Source of the DNA: Promethearchaeota archaeon
GTDB lineage: Archaea > Asgardarchaeota > Lokiarchaeia > Sigynarchaeales > SOKP01
Length of the DNA: 6,410 bases
Direction: 5' to 3'
Assembly (NCBI GenBank): GCA_030668025.1
Contig: DAOUUT010000218.1
Coordinates: forward strand, 1 to 6,410
Positions 1-6,410 of this stretch are shown in pieces. Numbering within the stretch: position 1 is the first letter of the stretch; every line of letters begins with the position of its first letter. The notes beneath the pieces were generated by a model. It saw nothing but the letters and a program-made list of their open reading frames with translations. It made no database searches and was not told the DNA's origin. Both the position numbers and the translations under genes were made by a program.

Positions 1-684
1 GGCTTCAATATGTAAATCCAGCTTCAACAAATCCTTTAAAATTTCGTTCATGCTGGAAGGAGGAGGAATTTTTTCTTCTGGTTTTTTTTGAATAGCTTGC
101 TTTTGTTTTTTAATAGATTTTAAGGGCTTTACTGTTATTTTTTTAGATAAAAATGACAATACATCTGTCATATCTTCTTCTAATTGTTTTTGCTTCAAAA
201 GCACAGACTCCTTTTCAGATAGGGATACGGTTGATTTTTGAGCGCTCCGTGGTTTCGTATCAGCACGTCTCCTAACTTGTCGGGGCGGTCCGAAAACTCC
301 TTTATCCGAAATAATTGAACCTTTATAAGGTTGAGGCGCAATTTCTTCTAAAACATCTGTATCCTCTTCATCTTCCAGGTCGCCCTCTACGAACTCTTCG
401 GCATCTTCGTATTCAAAGGGGGTTTGAGTTTCAATAAGATCATCCTCAATTTCGTTTATTTCTTCGGGTTTTGGGATCTCTTGTAGGTCTAAATGATGTG
501 GTTTAGACACTTTTTTCTCATCAAGAATTCTATTTTGAGGTTTAACTTCTTTTTTCTCCTTTTTACTAGGTGCCATTCTAATTCTTGGAGGCCTACGGGA
601 AGTGGGAAGTAGAGCCCCACACTTTCGGCAAATCTGACCGCTCACTTCACTATTAGTCGCACCACAATTAGAACAAATGATCAT
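1..684 (-). CDS. Zinc-ribbon protein with acidic linker and probable roadblock/LC7 domain (C-terminus cut off)
   Basis: I translated this reading frame by hand. It starts at ATG (682-684) and stays open for 228 codons to the window edge, so the C-terminus is missing. Residues 4-22 form a zinc ribbon with two CxxCG knuckles (CSNCG and CRKCG). Residues about 69-115 are very rich in Glu and Asp, and about 183-207 are rich in Lys and Gln; both look disordered. The last visible residues (about 212-228, MNEILKDLLKLDLHIEA) resemble helix 1 and the start of strand 1 of archaeal roadblock/LC7 domains, which usually begin with a similar (I/L)LK-L- -IEA pattern. The roadblock call is an inference because the diagnostic DG strand lies outside the window. 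It lies downstream of a Rag-like GTPase on the same strand after a 129-base gap, so a role as scaffold or partner of that GTPase is plausible. It could instead be just a zinc-ribbon protein with a coiled tail. Confidence 0.8.
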   Translation of the reverse strand, partial: MIICSNCGATNSEVSGQICRKCGALLPTSRRPPRIRMAPSKKEKKEVKPQNRILDEKKVSKPHHLDLQEIPKPEEINEIEDDLIETQTPFEYEDAEEFVEGDLEDEEDTDVLEEIAPQPYKGSIISDKGVFGPPRQVRRRADTKPRSAQKSTVSLSEKESVLLKQKQLEEDMTDVLSFLSKKITVKPLKSIKKQKQAIQKKPEEKIPPPSSMNEILKDLLKLDLHIEA

Positions 685-699
685 TGGGATTATCTCTTT

Positions 700-757
700 T
701 ATCAGTTTTTAAAATCAGAAATAATATCGCATAAATAAAGTTTTTATATATATTATA
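700..757 (-). promoter_or_regulatory. Candidate TATA elements for the zinc-ribbon gene
   Basis: Read on the minus strand, the gap holds two AT blocks: a TATATATAAAAA-like stretch near 741-752 and a GATTTTAAAAAC stretch near 704-716. The second is centred about 25 bases before the ATG at 684 and would give a leaderless transcript; the first would give a leader of roughly 30 bases. No Shine-Dalgarno motif is seen before the ATG. The gap is AT-rich throughout, so the exact box is uncertain. Confidence 0.35.
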
Positions 758-784
758 AGTATAAAAATTCAATTTTATTAATGT

Positions 785-820
785 TAGCTAAAGCAAATTA
801 AAAATAAAAAGAGTTAGCTA
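785..820 (-). terminator. Possible hairpin at the 3' end of the Rag-like GTPase gene
   Basis: GTTAGCTA occurs twice, at 783-790 and 813-820, the second copy overlapping the stop codon (814-816). Because TAGCTA is self-complementary, the copies can pair as a 7-base stem (785-791 with 814-820) around an AT-rich loop. On the minus strand a short T5 run follows about 15 bases later. This might be a terminator or an RNA-processing signal, but the stem is weak and may be chance. Confidence 0.25.
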
Positions 821-1785
821 TATAGGATTTCTGTTAATAAATTAGCAAAACAATCAAATTCCTCTTTGTTAATATTTGGATCTTGTTTAAGCATAAGTAA
901 ATAGTACGGAGTAGAATCTTCTTTTAAAGCAAGTTGCTTGAAAATGAAATTCTTTCCAAATCTTTGCACAACCATGTGATTTTCCTCTTCTTCGCGGCTA
1001 GGCTGAGCTTCAGTAAAAACAAAAGAATCATTAAGTGTCAAAAAATACGGCGTTGAAGCTGAAAGCAGATTCTTTGTTTCCTCATCTTTGTAATAACTAC
1101 CTATGATAAGACTATTGTCGTCTAATAAAACCACACCTTCAGAATAAGTCTTTTTGCCAAATTCTACTATTGTTTTTTCAATTAATTCCGATTTTGGGTA
1201 AAGAGCCAAAAGAATTTCAGACATGGCTTTAATAATAGAGGGTAAATCGTAGATTGAAGTATTGTAATAAAAAACTTTCTTATAATCTACCACACTTTTT
1301 ATCTTTTCCTTTAAATCTATTTCAAGGGCCTTCATTTCGTTTAAAGCGTTACGTCTTAACGCCGGATCGTATTTGTGGAAGAAAATATAGATGCTCGGCT
1401 CTATTTCCAGCTTATTAAATTGCTCTACTACATCTTTAAAATAGCTGATAGCTTCGGGTATTCTTGCGTGATTTTGAACATCTATAACATAAACAGCAAT
1501 CTCAGTGTCGTCGAAATACTTTCCCGGATTCTTTAAATAAGCTATTCTATAACTAAATTGACCCCCAAGGTCCCATTCCGCTATTTCACGCCCTAAAAAC
1601 TCAAATATCCTTCTTTGGGCTCCTCTTGTTGGCTTTAGAAATGCGATTTTCGAGAATTCCCTCTGAATTGCGTAAATAATTGTAGTCTTGCCTGCGTTAT
1701 CGAGGCCCGTAAATAAAATTTTACTAGGTGACGCTATAGTTTCCTTTTTTTCTTTTTTATCTTTGGACAAAAATTGAATTGACAA
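814..1785 (-). CDS. Rag/Gtr-like small GTPase with C-terminal roadblock-like domain
   Basis: This 323-residue protein has a short Lys/Glu-rich tail (1-21) and then a Ras-superfamily GTPase domain. The motifs are G1 GLDNAGKT (27-34), G2 Thr53 in LKPTRGA, G3 WDLGGQ (71-76), G4 HKYD (137-140) and G5 TSIYD (176-180). PTxG plus WDxGGQ is Arf-like, whereas HKxD and TSI(Y/W)D are hallmarks of eukaryotic Rag/Gtr GTPases, as is VIDVQ (100-104). Residues about 200-323 hold a second alpha/beta domain with a strand-turn-strand such as GVVLLDDNSLIIGSYY, placed like the roadblock domain of Rag proteins, which drives dimerisation. There is no signal peptide or membrane segment, so it is cytosolic or recruited through partners. 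The start is TTG: an in-frame TGA lies four codons upstream (1795-1797), no ATG is near, and GAGG sits 7 bases before it. The gene precedes the zinc-ribbon/roadblock-like gene on the same strand. Fold family is quite sure; the nutrient-sensing role known for Rag is only an analogy. Confidence 0.9.
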   Translation of the reverse strand: MSIQFLSKDKKEKKETIASPSKILFTGLDNAGKTTIIYAIQREFSKIAFLKPTRGAQRRIFEFLGREIAEWDLGGQFSYRIAYLKNPGKYFDDTEIAVYVIDVQNHARIPEAISYFKDVVEQFNKLEIEPSIYIFFHKYDPALRRNALNEMKALEIDLKEKIKSVVDYKKVFYYNTSIYDLPSIIKAMSEILLALYPKSELIEKTIVEFGKKTYSEGVVLLDDNSLIIGSYYKDEETKNLLSASTPYFLTLNDSFVFTEAQPSREEEENHMVVQRFGKNFIFKQLALKEDSTPYYLLMLKQDPNINKEEFDCFANLLTEILYS

Positions 1786-1792
1786 TTGAATT

Positions 1793-1797
1793 CCTCA
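1793..1797 (-). promoter_or_regulatory. Shine-Dalgarno site supporting the TTG start
   Basis: On the minus strand the bases read GTGAGGAATTCAATTG. GAGGA lies 7 bases before the TTG at 1785 and is a good match to an archaeal anti-Shine-Dalgarno sequence. It is the only clear ribosome binding site I see in the window, and it settles the choice of start for the Rag-like GTPase. Confidence 0.55.
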
Positions 1798-1804
1798 CAA
1801 CCAT

Positions 1805-1843
1805 ATTCTTATAAAAATAATAATAACAAACATTCTTATAAAA
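1805..1843 (-). promoter_or_regulatory. Tandem TATA boxes in a 12-base direct repeat
   Basis: ATTCTTATAAAA (plus-strand reading) occurs exactly at 1805-1816 and 1832-1843, 27 bases apart. On the minus strand each reads TTTTATAAGAAT, a good archaeal TATA box. The distal copy is preceded by purine-rich AAGGA, like a BRE, and would start transcription near 1814, giving a leader of nearly 30 bases that carries the GAGGA site. The proximal copy would start transcription at or next to the TTG codon. Confidence 0.45.
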
Positions 1844-1920
1844 TTATCCTTAACTTTAATATTAAAATCTTTAGGATATTTTTTCATTAATAAGGGATAT
1901 GGAAAATTTTTCGCTTTATA

Positions 1921-2187
1921 TTAAAATTCAAATCCTTTTCCGAAAAAATCTGTAATATCGAAATATAAAGTAATTTCTCGACCATCTTCCAATTTCAATT
2001 CCAAGACATCGTACATTCTATCACCTTGGTTTTGTAAACTCTGCCTAATTAATTGATAATTACCAAGCCTTTCTCGAACTTCAATATATTCCTGTTCTAC
2101 ACCTTCGAGACTACTGCAATCTGAGATTATTATAGCTTCTTCAAAAGAAAAGCCATCTCCTCCACTAATTTTTACTATTATTAACAC
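1921..2187 (-). CDS. Small conserved-looking protein of unknown function
   Basis: This is an 88-residue acidic protein starting at GTG (2185-2187); no ATG is available near the N-terminus. I do not recognise a named family with confidence. The N-terminus MLIIVKISGGDGFSFEEA looks like a beta strand followed by a glycine loop. The middle (about 28-60) is a predicted helix pair, and the C-terminus alternates hydrophobic residues (VLELKLEDGREITLYFDITDFFGKG) as two more strands, suggesting a compact alpha/beta fold. It has no cysteine pair, membrane segment or signal peptide. The regular amphipathic pattern and the lack of an overlapping better ORF argue that it is real. It begins 46 bases after the SLOG-family gene on the same strand and could be cotranscribed with it. 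Confidence 0.7.
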   Translation of the reverse strand: MLIIVKISGGDGFSFEEAIIISDCSSLEGVEQEYIEVRERLGNYQLIRQSLQNQGDRMYDVLELKLEDGREITLYFDITDFFGKGFEF

Positions 2188-2192
2188 CTTAA

Positions 2193-2215
2193 AAATATTT
2201 TATCAAATATTTTAT
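2193..2215 (-). promoter_or_regulatory. Tandem AT repeat, candidate promoter of the 88-residue gene
   Basis: AAATATTTTAT is repeated exactly at 2193-2203 and 2205-2215, a 12-base period close to one helical turn. On the minus strand the distal copy reads ATAAAATATTT and is centred about 23 bases before the GTG at 2187, as expected for the TATA box of a leaderless gene. Low sequence complexity makes this tentative. Confidence 0.3.
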
Positions 2216-2233
2216 TCAAATTTTTAACTTATT

Positions 2234-2794
2234 TTAAAACTCATTTGGCATGCCGTACTTATTTTTAAGTCCTTTTTCAAAAAGTTCGTTCAATTTATCA
2301 ACCGCTTCTTGAGCCGTTTTTGCTCCGTGTATGGTATCACTTCTTCTATCGTCGATTTTTTTGCCTGCCATTTTAGAGGACCACCCTTCTACCACGCCAG
2401 TTAGCGCAACGATTGGTTTCTCGTATATCCAAGCGAAGCATATTTCTGATAAGGTGCCTGCTTTCCCCCCTATCGCGACTACTGCGTCACCACTAAGCAC
2501 CACAACAATATTTCGCGCTTGAGAAAATGGAACTGGAATTACAACATCAACATATTTATTCGCTAAATTTTTATCTTTAAAAGGAATTATTCCTATCGTG
2601 AATCCCCCTTCTTGTTTCGCTCCTTTGCAAACAGCTTCCATAACTCCAGAAAGCCCTCCGCACGCAACAGCAAAATTGTTTCTAGCGAGCAATCCTCCCA
2701 ATTCATTAGCTAATTTCTCCGTTTTTGAATCGATTTGGCTAGTGCCAATTACAGAAACAGTTCCCTTAAATTTATTTTTGAAATTAAAACTCAT
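2234..2794 (-). CDS. SLOG-superfamily Rossmann nucleotide-binding protein (TIGR00725 / LOG-like)
   Basis: This 186-residue protein opens with a beta strand TVSVIGTSQ (12-20), followed by GGLSGVMEA (46-54), where LOG proteins have GGGxxGLMGA, and GGFTIGIIP (63-71). ARN (93-95) and IGGKAGTLSE (108-117) match the conserved RN and the PGGxGTxxE nucleotide-binding/catalytic motif. Pro is replaced by Ile and an Ala is present, the pattern of the TIGR00725 / SLOG cluster 4 group, which includes molybdenum-cofactor carrier-like proteins, rather than of true cytokinin-activating LOG phosphoribohydrolases. Arg94 and Glu117 are retained, so nucleotide binding is likely; hydrolysis of a nucleoside 5'-monophosphate is possible but not shown. 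The protein is cytosolic and close to the family's usual length. ATG at 2792-2794 is the natural start, just ahead of the first strand. It is divergent from the small zinc-ribbon gene. Confidence 0.88.
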   Translation of the reverse strand: MSFNFKNKFKGTVSVIGTSQIDSKTEKLANELGGLLARNNFAVACGGLSGVMEAVCKGAKQEGGFTIGIIPFKDKNLANKYVDVVIPVPFSQARNIVVVLSGDAVVAIGGKAGTLSEICFAWIYEKPIVALTGVVEGWSSKMAGKKIDDRRSDTIHGAKTAQEAVDKLNELFEKGLKNKYGMPNEF

Positions 2795-2903
2795 TGTATT
2801 TCAATATCTTATTTTTTAATAATTCCTAATATTGCTCGAATATTTTTATTTGTTTAGAATTATTGATATCTAATTAAATATTTTTTTTCAAAATGAGTTT
2901 ATT

Positions 2904-2939
2904 GATCATCGAATGTTGCAGAATGCCCATCAGATGATC
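2904..2939. promoter_or_regulatory. Inverted repeat, candidate operator in the divergent gap
   Basis: GATCATC (2904-2910) is exactly complementary to GATGATC (2933-2939), with a 22-base interior. The interior is less AT-rich than its surroundings and contains GAATG twice (2911-2915, 2921-2925). It ends about 11 bases before the TATA-like box of the zinc-ribbon gene at 2981, a position suited to a regulator binding site. A function is inferred only from placement. Confidence 0.3.
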
Positions 2940-2944
2940 GAAAG

Positions 2945-2967
2945 CAAAAACTTAAATGTTTAAAATC
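2945..2967 (+). promoter_or_regulatory. Promoter of the small zinc-ribbon gene, probably leaderless
   Basis: CAAAAACTTAAATGTTTAAAA contains a purine-rich BRE-like stretch and a TATA-like CTTAAATG (2951-2958). Its centre is about 26 bases before the ATG at 2981, so transcription would begin at or next to the start codon. No Shine-Dalgarno motif lies in the ten bases before the ATG, which fits a leaderless mRNA. Confidence 0.5.
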
Positions 2968-2980
2968 ATATTATTATTAT

Positions 2981-3175
2981 ATGGAAACAAAACATAGATT
3001 AAAACCAAGTAGTTTCATTGCCCCGTATCAAAAGGGCTCTTCAATTTACTGCCCAGCTTGTGGACATATCATGGAACAAGTTCCTCATATACCTAAAGAG
3101 ATAAAACAAATTTATCAATGTCCGAGATGTAATACCTTTATTCCGAAACAGATTTTTAGCCTGTTAGATCTTTAA
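2981..3175 (+). CDS. Small two-CxxC zinc-ribbon protein
   Basis: This 64-residue protein has CPACGH (24-29) and CPRCNT (47-52), four cysteines that would bind one zinc in a rubredoxin-like ribbon. The 19-residue spacing between the pairs is typical of treble-clef or zinc-ribbon domains. There is no other domain, so it may act as a small nucleic-acid-binding or protein-binding adaptor; the specific role is unknown. Support for a real gene comes from the paired cysteine knuckles, a well-placed TATA-like box, and a tandem TAATAA stop at the end. It stands alone on the plus strand between two minus-strand genes. The N-terminal HRLKPSSFIAPYQKG is basic and without a recognisable motif. Confidence 0.75.
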   Translation: METKHRLKPSSFIAPYQKGSSIYCPACGHIMEQVPHIPKEIKQIYQCPRCNTFIPKQIFSLLDL

Positions 3176-3187
3176 TAAAGGTTAATA

Positions 3188-3229
3188 ACGAGAATTATCA
3201 TTTAATATGGGGTAGAGAGAGTTTCTCGT
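3188..3229 (+). other. Inverted repeat downstream of the small zinc-ribbon gene
   Basis: ACGAGAA (3188-3194) is complementary to TTCTCGT (3223-3229) across a 28-base loop that contains the purine-rich stretch GGGGTAGAGAGAG (3209-3221). It starts 12 bases after the stop codon and may be a 3'-UTR hairpin or part of a terminator; no strong T run follows. The rest of the 3176-3379 gap is AT-rich with no credible gene or RNA. Confidence 0.25.
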
Positions 3230-3379
3230 AGCTTATTTCTTATCGATTAGATTAAACCTTAAGGACAACATTCTCAATGACATTTAGATTGAAAATAAAT
3301 AATGTTTAAAAAACAGTTTTATTTGTATTATAACTTAAAAATTAGTAAATACGAGTCCCACAGTCAGGAAATTAAATCT

Positions 3380-4336
3380 TTAATAATCCATAACATCTAA
3401 AGATTCTCTACCATTGTTTATTTTTAATCCCGCTTTTTCTGTAATTTTTCCAATCAAATTTGCTGACATATTATGGTCTTTAAAAATTTTGATTATTTGT
3501 TGAGATTTTTCTTCAGGTGCAGTAAGTATATATGAAGTGGTTAAAAACATTTTAATGTAAGTCTCCAAATTATACCCATTCTCTAATAATTTTGGAGGAA
3601 TGACAATCCTTTCAATATTTACATCCGCGCCAATTTTAGAATATTGCATTAGTTGTAAAATAGTTCCAAACACGCCTCCGTTAGAAATATCCTTTGACGA
3701 ATTGGCAAGATGTTCTTGAGCAATAACATTCATAGATTTTCTTTTATTTAAAACTTTTTCAGATTCCTTAAACGTAGTTGTATCCCAATGTAAAACATTT
3801 GCTTTTCCTATTTTTCCGTCAAAATCAACTGCTAAAATGATGTCATCGTTTGGTTGTGCATTTTTTGCAGATATATAATCTTCTTTTTTGATTTCTCCTA
3901 TTAACGCAGTACTTAGTTCGTAATAATTTTTCATATTCGTGTGACCCCGAATTATCGGAACATTAAACTTTTTCGAGCCAGCACACACCCCTTCAACAAT
4001 TTTTTGCCCAATCTTTTGTTCTTTAAAGGAGATTATCAAACTTGCCGCTAACGGCGTCCCTCCACAAGCGTAAATATCATCTACTCCAACCAAGATGGAA
4101 CTAAAGCCAGCGCCAAATGGAAACTTTTCTATAAAAGTAGTTTTAATACGATCGGTTGTTACTAACGTGTACATTCCATTATCGTTCTTAACTGCGGCAG
4201 AATCTTCTCCTATGTCTGAAAAAATACGAGAACTTTTAAAAGAATTTAAATTTATGAATTGAACTATAGGATCAATGCTTTTTTTTTCAATTATGTTGCT
4301 ATTATTCTTAATACTTTCAGCAATTTTTTTTAACAT
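3380..4336 (-). CDS. AIR-synthase-related (PurM-fold) protein, methanogenesis-marker-2 / sll0787-like
   Basis: This 318-residue protein belongs to the PurM/SelD/ThiL/HypE superfamily of ATP-binding enzymes. The N-terminal half has GEDSAAV (43-49), the counterpart of GDDAAV, and GVDDIYACGGTP (84-95), the Asp-rich metal/ATP strand. RGHTN (130-134) stands where relatives have GGHT. The C-terminal half has WDTTTFK (184-190) and KDISNGG (215-221) followed by GT, the pattern seen in methanogenesis marker protein 2 and the sll0787 group of AIR-synthase-related proteins, and unlike true PurM. Length fits that group. The substrate is unknown for these relatives, so I give no reaction beyond probable ATP-dependent phosphoryl chemistry. 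Two changes stand out: Glu44 for the usual first Asp and Arg130 for Gly. The ATG at 4334-4336 has a TATA-like TATTTAATA about 30 bases upstream and no Shine-Dalgarno. It is divergent from the longin-GTPase gene with an 89-base gap. Confidence 0.85.
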   Translation of the reverse strand: MLKKIAESIKNNSNIIEKKSIDPIVQFINLNSFKSSRIFSDIGEDSAAVKNDNGMYTLVTTDRIKTTFIEKFPFGAGFSSILVGVDDIYACGGTPLAASLIISFKEQKIGQKIVEGVCAGSKKFNVPIIRGHTNMKNYYELSTALIGEIKKEDYISAKNAQPNDDIILAVDFDGKIGKANVLHWDTTTFKESEKVLNKRKSMNVIAQEHLANSSKDISNGGVFGTILQLMQYSKIGADVNIERIVIPPKLLENGYNLETYIKMFLTTSYILTAPEEKSQQIIKIFKDHNMSANLIGKITEKAGLKINNGRESLDVMDY

Positions 4337-4362
4337 TACTGTTCTAGTAAAAAATCTATTAT

Positions 4363-4371
4363 TATTAAATA
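4363..4371 (-). promoter_or_regulatory. TATA-like box of the AIR-synthase-related gene
   Basis: On the minus strand TATTTAATA is centred about 31 bases before the ATG at 4336, so the transcript would have a leader of only a few bases. It sits back to back with the TATA-like box of the divergent gene, so both promoters are packed into 89 bases. Confidence 0.4.
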
Positions 4372-4386
4372 ATTAACTTTCCTACC

Positions 4387-4398
4387 TTTATTATTAAA
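4387..4398 (+). promoter_or_regulatory. TATA-like box of the longin-GTPase gene
   Basis: TTTATTATTAAA is centred about 34 bases before the ATG at 4426, predicting a start of transcription near 4417 and a leader under 10 bases. That short leader shows no Shine-Dalgarno motif. It does contain ATGTAATGG, in which a two-codon ATG-TAA overlaps the real start. Confidence 0.35.
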
Positions 4399-4425
4399 AA
4401 ATAATAATACAGAAAGTTCTATGTA

Positions 4426-5934
4426 ATGGATGATTTAATTGAATCTTCTATAGTCGAAGGACTAGTGTTTTGCGCCTATGATAAATTAGGTCCTCAACCA
4501 ATTTATATGTTTCCTAAACCAATTAAGGGGAAAGATACAGGACCTGAAAACAGAGAAAGGTTAGTTGGAAAAGGGCTTAAATTGTCTTTAAGAGATTATA
4601 TGCAAATCTCAATTAAAACCTTAAGCCTACTCCTCGGAAATGGGATGTTAATTAATAAAGACTCAGCTATGTTAAAGCAATACCAATACTTTGGAGTTAT
4701 TCCCTTTCCAGATTTTCATTTAACAGCACTTACATTTTTTCATTTTGTTGAAAAATTTGATGAAGCTCCTTTAGCAAGTGCTTTCTGCATATTAGTAGAC
4801 GAGAATCAACGAGGCTTTTTATATAACAACATCAATCGACTAAAAAATATTGTTCTCGATTTCTTTAACCATTTTGATAAAATAATTGCTGAAAAGTTCC
4901 AACCACAGGAGCAAGTAGAACGTTATTTTAAGAGCTTATTAAAAAAAATAATCACAATTGAAAAAACACCATCAACACCTACTACCTCGCAAAGAAAAAT
5001 GAAAATTTTATTCGCGGGTCTTGACGATAGCGGGAAGACGAGCTTTTTGCTTTCAATAGATAGAAAATTTTCAAAGTTGATTGGATTAAAACCTACTAGA
5101 GGGGCAGATGTAAGTTCAATAGAAGCACTAGGGGCTACGATCTTTCTTTGGGATTTAGGTGGTCAAAAAGCATACCACGAAAAATATCTTAATAAAGCCC
5201 AGATCTATTTGTTCGAAGCAGATTTGCTTTTCTATTTCATTGATATAAGAAACGAAGCCCGCTTTGAAGAAAGTATTGAATACCTTAAAAATATGAAAAA
5301 AGCATTAGCACATCTAGATCAGGCAACTCCAATTATCTACATTTTTTCGAAAGGAGACCCCGACATAATTGACTCTAAAGAAATTAATAACAACTTTAAA
5401 GTAATAAAAAAGAAGTTAGCTAAAATCTCTTTAGATAAAAAACCTGAAATTTACGTAACAAGCGTATTTCAAATCTTTACCATATTAAGAGCATTTTCAT
5501 CAGGTATAGCCAAATTAAGTCCAAATAGAGACTTGATCAAACATAACCTTCACATATTTTCGTCTAAATCTGATGTATATTTGGCTCTCTTGTTAAGCAA
5601 CGATGGATTAGTATTAGCTGAATATTATACCCCTGAGGCAATGGAAATCACAAAAATGCAAAAATCTGACGACTTATTAAATGTATTCGAGGTTGTAGCA
5701 CCACAATTTGCCATATTGTTTAAAATATTTTCGAAATATAAGGCTGCAGAGAAAGACGAAGCCATATTTAAAGTTTCAAACTCAGTTATTTTGTTTAAGA
5801 AAATTAAGGTTTTGCATTACGAAATGTTCATTCTTTTCTTATTAGACAACGAGAACACAAAAGAAAAAATTAACAAAAATATTCAAGATTTCCTCGATCG
5901 TACACAAGATTTACTAATAAGGTATATCTCTTAA
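4426..5934 (+). CDS. Three-domain protein: longin-like, Rag/Arf-like GTPase, roadblock-like
   Basis: This 502-residue protein has three parts. Residues about 8-155 look like a longin-type domain: strand GLVFCAYD, then GPQPIYMFP (22-30), a GP-x-x-x-Y-x-x-P turn also seen in the first hairpin of Nprl2 and DENN-type longins, with later strands near 86-125 and helices to 157. A Pro/Thr-rich linker (180-189) follows. The GTPase domain has G1 GLDDSGKT (198-205), G2 Thr224 in LKPTRGA, G3 WDLGGQ (242-247), G4 SKGD (308-311) and G5 TSV (345-347). RAFSSGIAKLSP (355-366) and the stretch to IF (378) parallel the linker from GTPase to roadblock domain in Rag proteins. Residues about 383-502 form a roadblock-like domain (YLALLLSNDGLVLAEYY). 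It is soluble, with no membrane segment. In G4, Ser replaces the usual Asn (His in Rag), so guanine specificity may be altered. It is a paralogue of the GTPase at 814-1785. GTPase call is firm; the longin and roadblock folds are inferred from pattern and position. Confidence 0.88.
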   Translation: MDDLIESSIVEGLVFCAYDKLGPQPIYMFPKPIKGKDTGPENRERLVGKGLKLSLRDYMQISIKTLSLLLGNGMLINKDSAMLKQYQYFGVIPFPDFHLTALTFFHFVEKFDEAPLASAFCILVDENQRGFLYNNINRLKNIVLDFFNHFDKIIAEKFQPQEQVERYFKSLLKKIITIEKTPSTPTTSQRKMKILFAGLDDSGKTSFLLSIDRKFSKLIGLKPTRGADVSSIEALGATIFLWDLGGQKAYHEKYLNKAQIYLFEADLLFYFIDIRNEARFEESIEYLKNMKKALAHLDQATPIIYIFSKGDPDIIDSKEINNNFKVIKKKLAKISLDKKPEIYVTSVFQIFTILRAFSSGIAKLSPNRDLIKHNLHIFSSKSDVYLALLLSNDGLVLAEYYTPEAMEITKMQKSDDLLNVFEVVAPQFAILFKIFSKYKAAEKDEAIFKVSNSVILFKKIKVLHYEMFILFLLDNENTKEKINKNIQDFLDRTQDLLIRYIS

Positions 5935-6410
5935 AATATGTGCTTAAGTGGAGTCCGATCTGAAATCTTTTTTCGTAGAATTCTTTTTCGATAATACGAA
6001 TTAATTCCAGAAATGAGAGACATGGCGGGAATAATACACTTAGCAAACTTGACCGGCCCAAATAGCACAAAATCGCTTCCAGCGTTAACGCAATATGCCA
6101 TTAACGATGCAATACCACCACATCTAGACGAATCGCCGTATTTTTTAACGAAGTCCCATCCATAAATTGCGTTGGCGGGAGCGAAACCTGTGGGTAATCC
6201 TAATTCCGATTTTACTAACCTCGTTGTCTCAACATTAATCGCAATCGAAGGTAAGTCTAATACTGCTGTATCAATCATGATATTTTCAATGTTAGCTCTT
6301 TGAGCCTTTGATATTAATTCGTTCTTAAGAAAATCTAATTTTGCCTGAGGAAATATGTATCTGTTTCCAAAAGTTAATAAAACCGCGTGCTTTACGCCAA
6401 TTTCTTTCAA
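5931..6410 (-). CDS. MtrH-family methyltransferase, C-terminal half (N-terminus outside window)
   Basis: The 159 visible codons are the C-terminal part of a protein continuing beyond 6410; the first visible codon is TTG and is almost certainly internal. MtrH landmarks are clear: IMIDTAVLDLPS (visible residues 44-55), GLPTGFAPANA (71-81) followed by W85, and SDFVLFGPVK in place of the usual GADFVLYGPI. MtrH transfers a methyl group between tetrahydromethanopterin (or tetrahydrofolate) and a corrinoid protein. It is a TIM-barrel pterin-binding enzyme of about 310-330 residues, so roughly half is missing. In non-methanogens, including Asgard archaea, stand-alone MtrH homologues usually serve corrinoid methyltransferase systems rather than the Mtr membrane complex. 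No corrinoid protein or other Mtr subunit is visible here. The C-terminal tail is basic (YYRKRILRKK). It ends tail to tail with the three-domain GTPase gene, sharing TTAA. Confidence 0.88.
   Translation of the reverse strand: MKEIGVKHAVLLTFGNRYIFPQAKLDFLKNELISKAQRANIENIMIDTAVLDLPSIAINVETTRLVKSELGLPTGFAPANAIYGWDFVKKYGDSSRCGGIASLMAYCVNAGSDFVLFGPVKFAKCIIPAMSLISGINSYYRKRILRKKISDRTPLKHIF

Follow-up and report, generated by a model that had tools for sequence, protein, structure and literature searches.

Two Rag-type GTPases and a roadblock gene in one locus

We have analysed a 6,410-nucleotide stretch of a Promethearchaeota archaeon (Lokiarchaeia), contig DAOUUT010000218.1, hereafter the window, together with its counterparts in other Asgard genomes (labels G denote genomes and L loci). 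Eight main genes lie in the window, among them those of two Rag-type GTPases, GTP1 and GTP2, and of a zinc-ribbon/roadblock protein, ZnRRB. GTP1 and GTP2 are related to GTPases used for nutrient signalling in human cells. The nearest loci among named records belong to Lokiarchaeota metagenome-assembled genomes, with 89-90% identity in GTP2. Here we establish the families, domain order, orthology and linkage of the locus genes; they constitute an old Lokiarchaeal Rag/roadblock/longin locus in which the linkage of GTPases and roadblock gene looks real and old. An earlier note on this DNA had proposed Rag-type GTPases at 814-1785 and 4426-5934, both with PTxG and WDLGGQ and the first with HKYD and TSIYD, a C-terminal roadblock fold in each, and a zinc-ribbon protein at the left edge ending in the start of a roadblock domain. 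All of these points were borne out by family matches, structure comparison and intact relatives.

GTP1 is a protein of 323 amino acids encoded on the minus strand (814..1785), with a Rag-type G domain and a C-terminal roadblock domain. In Pfam it matches Gtr1_RagA (1.1e-24, over the curated cut-off) and then Arf (1.3e-18). It carries the motifs GLDNAGKT, PTRG, WDLGGQ, HKYD and TSIYD, and the G3 motif WDLGGQ (residues 71-76; 1558..1575, minus strand) is invariant both in 18 and in 32 aligned rows. PDB entry 8yl2 matches GTP1 at 1.7e-90 across residues 11-320, a near full-length collinear match that includes the roadblock tail (residues about 198-323; 817..1194, minus strand). The entry title, from which the assembly state of LokiRagO is known here, reads 'Homo Tetrameric RagA-like small GTPase from Asgard Lokiarchaeota (LokiRagO) in complex with GTP'. 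In a 54-row tree LokiRagO falls inside the GTP1 clade (support 100/100); its sister there is GTP1 from G099, and the end branches measure about 0.02. GTP1 is orthologous to LokiRagO; a literature search found no paper on LokiRagO, LokiRagM or their PDB entries. Some genomes carry tandem GTP1 duplicates near ZnRRB (L064:13904-15933, L065:815-2812, L056:14987-17097), and a GTP1a:GTP1b pair is possible there.

ZnRRB (1..684, minus strand) begins with a zinc ribbon (Zn_ribbon_3, 2.4e-4, below the curated cut-off), followed by a low-complexity linker and the first ~17 roadblock residues, at which point the window edge truncates it (residue 228). Where the start is intact, relatives are 313-361 amino acids long and have a roadblock domain at the C-terminal end; in the L034 relative this domain covers residues 207-338 of a structure model and superposes on MglB. 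ZnRRB is the one stand-alone roadblock gene found at the locus, no genome-wide search for other roadblock proteins or for LAMTOR1 having been made.

GTP2 (4426..5934, plus strand; 502 amino acids) combines longin, Rag-type GTPase and roadblock domains, as seen from Pfam, alignment and a structure model (m4963e771db01; predicted local distance difference test, pLDDT, 76.6). Its Pfam matches are Gtr1_RagA (1.2e-20, over the curated cut-off) and then Arf (5.1e-16). The G domain (residues about 190-365; 4993..5520, plus strand) contains GLDDSGKT, PTRG and WDLGGQ, with G1 at 5017-5040 and G3 at 5149-5166. Its G4 motif is SKGD (5347-5358), in which S308, K309 and D311 are invariant across 18 rows and whose counterpart in GTP1 is HKYD; SKGD might have an effect on nucleotide affinity. 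The fold of the model matches 8yl2, RagA and RagC up to about residue 497, covering most of the roadblock tail (residues about 368-501; 5527..5928, plus strand). The N-terminal longin domain (residues 5-184; 4438..4977, plus strand), overlooked in the earlier note, was assigned by fold comparison alone; a profile search of the PDB with this region brought up no longin at E <= 10. Pfam Folliculin matches were obtained for 7 of 46 members at E <= 0.1 (best 0.0014; all below the cut-off as far as shown), one of which falls within the longin region of a GTP3 (0.0064). A link to Folliculin by sequence was rejected, having only these matches and no longin from the PDB search to draw on.

A further longin-Rag-roadblock paralogue, GTP3 (470-490 amino acids when complete), lies in relatives beyond ZnRRB and on the same strand as GTP1, a position past the window's left edge; it and the remainder of ZnRRB are known from relatives. 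GTP2 and GTP3 cluster together in the 54-row tree (100/98). GTP3 is present in 19 of 39 Lokiarchaeia loci, most of the others stopping short of its position. In relatives the locus comprises three Rag-type GTPases (GTP1 and the sister pair GTP2, GTP3) plus ZnRRB. Also near GTP3 are f19, whose Longin and winged-helix matches are weak and score under the cut-off (L048:5322-5933), and f13, a transglutaminase-core protein (L053:16364-17650).

Linkage across Asgard genomes

Profile searches covered 227 Asgard genomes at thresholds of E <= 1e-60 for GTP1 and E <= 1e-12 for ZnRRB. GTP2 and GTP3 were retrieved in a single joint search with the GTP3 alignment (E <= 1e-60) and split by hand on E-value; this search scores at most seven candidates per genome, and GTP2 is possibly undercounted. 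GTP1 was found in 67 of the 227 genomes and ZnRRB in 64, while the joint search matched 70, giving GTP3 in 62 and GTP2 in 55 after the split. Any of the four genes occurs in 74 genomes and all four in 43. Homologues of GTP1, GTP2 and ZnRRB each occur in many Asgard genomes, and their recognition in the window is not a matter of chance.

The genes co-occur in related genomes; the linkage counts come from genomes that are related and hence not independent, with the closest paralogue taken where several exist. GTP1 and ZnRRB share a contig in 52 genomes, and in 52/52 they lie on the same strand within 2.4 kb. One gene of G094 (C11:29826-30923), first filed as GTP2, has its best match in GTP3 and was reassigned, the counts being recomputed by hand. 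GTP1 and GTP3 lie within 15 kb of each other in 44 of 45 same-contig genomes (43 of 44 before the reassignment), on the same strand in 44/44 (43 of 43 before); GTP1 and GTP2 do so in 43 of 44 (44 of 45 raw), all 43 on opposite strands and within 10 kb. The counts omit two GTP1-model rows in long frames (G158:C45, G159:C15), a joint-search row (G088:C286, 1.5e-64) and the second piece of a split ZnRRB in G148, none of which has, on its own contig, a partner whose inclusion would alter them.

Two conserved neighbours accompany these genes: a SLOG/LDcluster4 protein (2234..2794, minus strand; PF18306, 1.9e-41) and an AIR-synthase-related protein, AIRS (3380..4336, minus strand; PF00586, PF02769), which also has a methanogenesis-marker-2-like match scoring below that model's cut-off and is divergent from GTP2 across a spacer of 89 nucleotides (4337..4425, from gene coordinates). 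The exception to GTP1-GTP2 linkage, G002 (L037), keeps ZnRRB-GTP1-SLOG-AIRS followed by a GTP2 start running into N, and is not a clean counter-example. Of 39 Lokiarchaeia loci, 32 have a GTP1 of at least 60% identity encoded on the strand opposite GTP2; the other seven are the N-run case and six loci without GTP1 on the available piece. Further genes are conserved in the same loci, with names partly assigned by eye: RNR-like (22), NERD-nuclease-like (25), YkgJ-like (28), macro-domain-like (26) and PEP-synthase-like (22). Because the flank genes are equally conserved, synteny in Lokiarchaeia alone says little on function; its value as functional proof is weakened, and the deep branch was examined in its place. 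Distance-matrix correlation was dropped as uninformative about partners, since GTP1-SLOG equals GTP1-GTP2 (0.816 vs 0.817 with equalised lengths); GTPase pairs rank near the top, yet GTP3-RNR ranks higher (n=8).

G094 has GTP1, ZnRRB and a GTP3-type gene consecutively on one strand. In the deep branch, G097-G099 resemble MK-D1 closely: over 90 residues, its roadblock protein 7yh1 is 96-98% identical there. G098 and G099 share the order f19, f13, GTP3, NUC8, GTP1, SLOG, AIRS, GTP2 (L048, L049), at identities to the Lokiarchaeal set of about 50% for GTP1 and 35% for GTP2; the 18 and 11 kb retrieved around them showed no RNR, ZnRRB, MtrH, macro-domain or PEP-synthase genes. The same-strand order AIRS, SLOG, GTP1 is retained in G096, G098 and G099. 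The clustering of Rag-like matches was examined on three chromosome-sized contigs: in G001 they are clustered (three of the eight fall within 10 kb; P 0.0034 under random placement), in G002 they are not (0 pairs among 13), and in G095 clustering is weak (14 matches with 2 pairs closer than 10 kb; P 0.06), with GTP3 about 80-87 kb distant.

Known systems and descent

How does this locus compare with known systems? LokiRagO belongs with GTP1 as an orthologue in one clade, and in G097-G099, which have its nearest relatives, the gene likewise adjoins SLOG and AIRS with GTP2 divergent; its branch differs in a longer N-terminus and in giving no ZnRRB match, and the homo-tetramer is that of LokiRagO by title, whereas for GTP1 it would be a prediction. 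Eukaryotic RagA/RagC (Gtr1/Gtr2) share a G domain with a roadblock tail, and the fold match runs across both parts. In contrast to them, no A/C-type split was seen between GTP1 and GTP2, and GTP2 and GTP3 each carry an additional longin domain in cis. Ragulator consists of two roadblock heterodimers held by LAMTOR1, whereas a single stand-alone roadblock gene was found at this locus. MglA is not known to carry a roadblock tail. The MglA/MglB system resembles the locus in that a GTPase gene adjoins a separate roadblock gene and the ZnRRB roadblock superposes on MglB, and differs in that GTP1 is a Gtr1_RagA family member with a fused roadblock.

In MK-D1, the portions of Tran et al. (2024, PMC10933270) consulted describe a 'pair of Rag-like GTPase genes in an operon' for which a roadblock-linked heterodimer is proposed; the likeness to the present locus lies in two Rag-like genes and a proposed heterodimer of this kind. 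G098 and G099 hold a tandem same-strand Rag-like pair (L087:1245-2141 + 2163-3083; L088:1183-2094 + 2108-3028), which is of a different family from GTP1 and GTP2, resembles LokiRagM by eye and is possibly the published pair. The same portions state that, as a rule, GTPase genes of MK-D1 do not share operons with genes for roadblock or longin proteins. In the part consulted of Dey et al. (2016, PMC4917890), it is an open question whether putative operons will reveal Loki small GTPase targets. The consulted parts of these two papers and of PMC9834061 do not describe this locus. The locus ties Rag-type GTPases both to two metabolic genes and to a roadblock protein, and names pairs for co-expression.

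It also distinguishes 'Rag-like in build' from 'ancestor of RagA/RagC'. WDLGGQ is the G3 motif of each GTPase in the window, and the RagC-type WDFPGQ occurs in neither. In three trees, in which long branches and odd composition were flagged, RagA clusters with S. pombe Gtr1 and RagC, while GTP1 and GTP2/3 fall outside this cluster (96/85, 99/98, 97/93). Constraint tests gave approximately unbiased (AU) p values of 0.061 for GTP1 with RagA and 0.062 for GTP1 with RagC, both borderline, and of 0.030 and 0.0105 for GTP2/3 with RagC and RagA; shared descent of GTP2/3 with either appears disfavoured, not firmly excluded. We set aside GTP1 and GTP2 as RagA/RagC counterparts, having found no RagC-type G3 and no tree that joins GTP1 to RagA or GTP2 to RagC; the constraint tests are not decisive. 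Another Asgard family, RX, lies nearer to the eukaryotic Rags in the tree. RX is a pan-Asgard Rag-like family of about 305 amino acids with DFGGQ (L076:999-1919 in G003:C22; L104-L121), present twice in some genomes (G101, G105, G059). At E <= 1e-20 a search with its member L076 matches 104 of the 227 genomes, with other families among the weaker matches. With 18 further RX members added, eukaryotic RagA/Gtr1/RagC stand beside RX (90/95), and RX is a candidate for their nearest relative; constraints placing the eukaryotic Rags with GTP1-3 (p 0.068), GTP1 (0.132) or GTP2/3 (0.070) were not rejected.

Interpretation of the locus and remaining genes

What might these genes do together? We give an even chance to our preferred reading, in which GTP1 is a homo-oligomer regulated by ZnRRB, and GTP2 and GTP3 are separate longin-bearing switches. 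GTP1 would be a GTP switch whose homo-oligomers assemble via its own roadblock tail, as its orthologue does in the crystal. ZnRRB may be a partner or regulator of GTP1, acting by roadblock-to-roadblock docking or by an MglB-like nucleotide effect, and GTP2 and GTP3 would each have a longin regulator in cis. GTP1-ZnRRB is the strongest partner inference because ZnRRB is constantly close by, downstream on the same strand, followed by GTP1-GTP3; GTP1-GTP2 is linked, on opposite strands. Several observations weigh against this reading. G095-G099, a LokiRagO-like branch, keep GTP1 with GTP2/GTP3 and give no ZnRRB match at E <= 1e-12, and therefore ZnRRB is not needed for GTP1 there. A single-protein crystal is compatible with a heteromeric state in the cell. 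The ZnRRB model (L034) is weak overall (pLDDT 60.8, predicted template modelling score 0.36), as are the matches of ZnRRB to Robl_LC7, of which the best is 0.0012; E <= 1 is reached by 9 of 16 members, and L034 scores under the curated cut-off. An extra open reading frame separates GTP1 from ZnRRB in some relatives (L014, L065).

The earlier note had seen here a Rag/Ragulator-like module. Non-equivalent Rag GTPases, roadblock tails, a roadblock neighbour and their linkage stand; RagA/RagC-like pairing is not supported by the trees, though the constraint tests leave GTP1 borderline. Its 'complete dimer-plus-scaffold unit', in which GTP1 and GTP2 would form a Rag-like heterodimer via their roadblock tails, with ZnRRB serving as the Ragulator-like docking scaffold, is unlikely in our judgement, and the evidence neither establishes nor favours a GTP1:GTP2 heterodimer on a Ragulator. 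The build of both proteins fits such a dimer, as does their linkage in 43 of 44 same-contig genomes (with G002 ending in N) and its persistence in the deep branch. However, the GTP1 orthologue is titled a homo-tetramer, the genes are on opposite strands in 43/43 linked genomes, and GTP3, near GTP1 and on the same strand, is an equal or better partner candidate. Moreover, no RagA-like/RagC-like split and no WDFPGQ were seen, ZnRRB was not found in a branch (G095-G099) keeping GTP1 and GTP2, and distance-matrix correlation does not single out this pair. It is instead conceivable, if doubtful, that there is no single machine at all, the GTPases acting separately and their adjacency coming from conserved Lokiarchaeia gene order. 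That order is largely kept over about 20 kb in the 39 loci, genes without obvious tie included, the 13 Rag-like matches of G002 are unclustered, and GTP3 of G095 lies far away; but in G098/G099 the order from GTP3 to GTP2 persists where several flank genes are not seen, and the clustering in G001 also speaks against mere inheritance of order.

The run AIRS-SLOG-GTP1-ZnRRB hints at a metabolic input, which is our guess. Taken further, GTP1 and ZnRRB would be the tail of a metabolic operon, with a switch that reads or controls enzyme chemistry and not membranes. The order shared by G096, G098 and G099 and the window spacings of 46-135 nucleotides from SLOG through an 88-amino-acid gene and GTP1 to ZnRRB agree with this; yet other genes interrupt the run in several relatives (L014, L033), its co-transcription would be a prediction, and we hold this reading quite improbable. 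More speculatively, and with little confidence, a multi-Rag signalling locus may have arisen independently of the RagA/RagC split and owe its asymmetry to protein architecture, with GTP1 pairing with ZnRRB via its roadblock tail, homo-tetramers in the LokiRagO branch where ZnRRB was lost, and FLCN/NPRL2-like longins in cis on GTP2 and GTP3. The estimates for these readings and for the GTP1-ZnRRB reading are not mutually exclusive.

The remaining window genes are less widely shared or lie in the flank. The uncharacterised 88-amino-acid protein encoded in the run that includes GTP1 (1921..2187, minus strand) has no Pfam match and is present in few loci, as is a zinc-ribbon protein of 64 amino acids (2981..3175, plus strand). 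An MtrH-family methyltransferase (5931..6410, minus strand; PF02007, 1.4e-17) is truncated by the right edge. At the far end of the syntenic region lies GTP4 (L039:19795-20838), a Ras/Rab-type GTPase (PF00071, 1.2e-46) with an N-terminal extension that by eye has a longin-like appearance.

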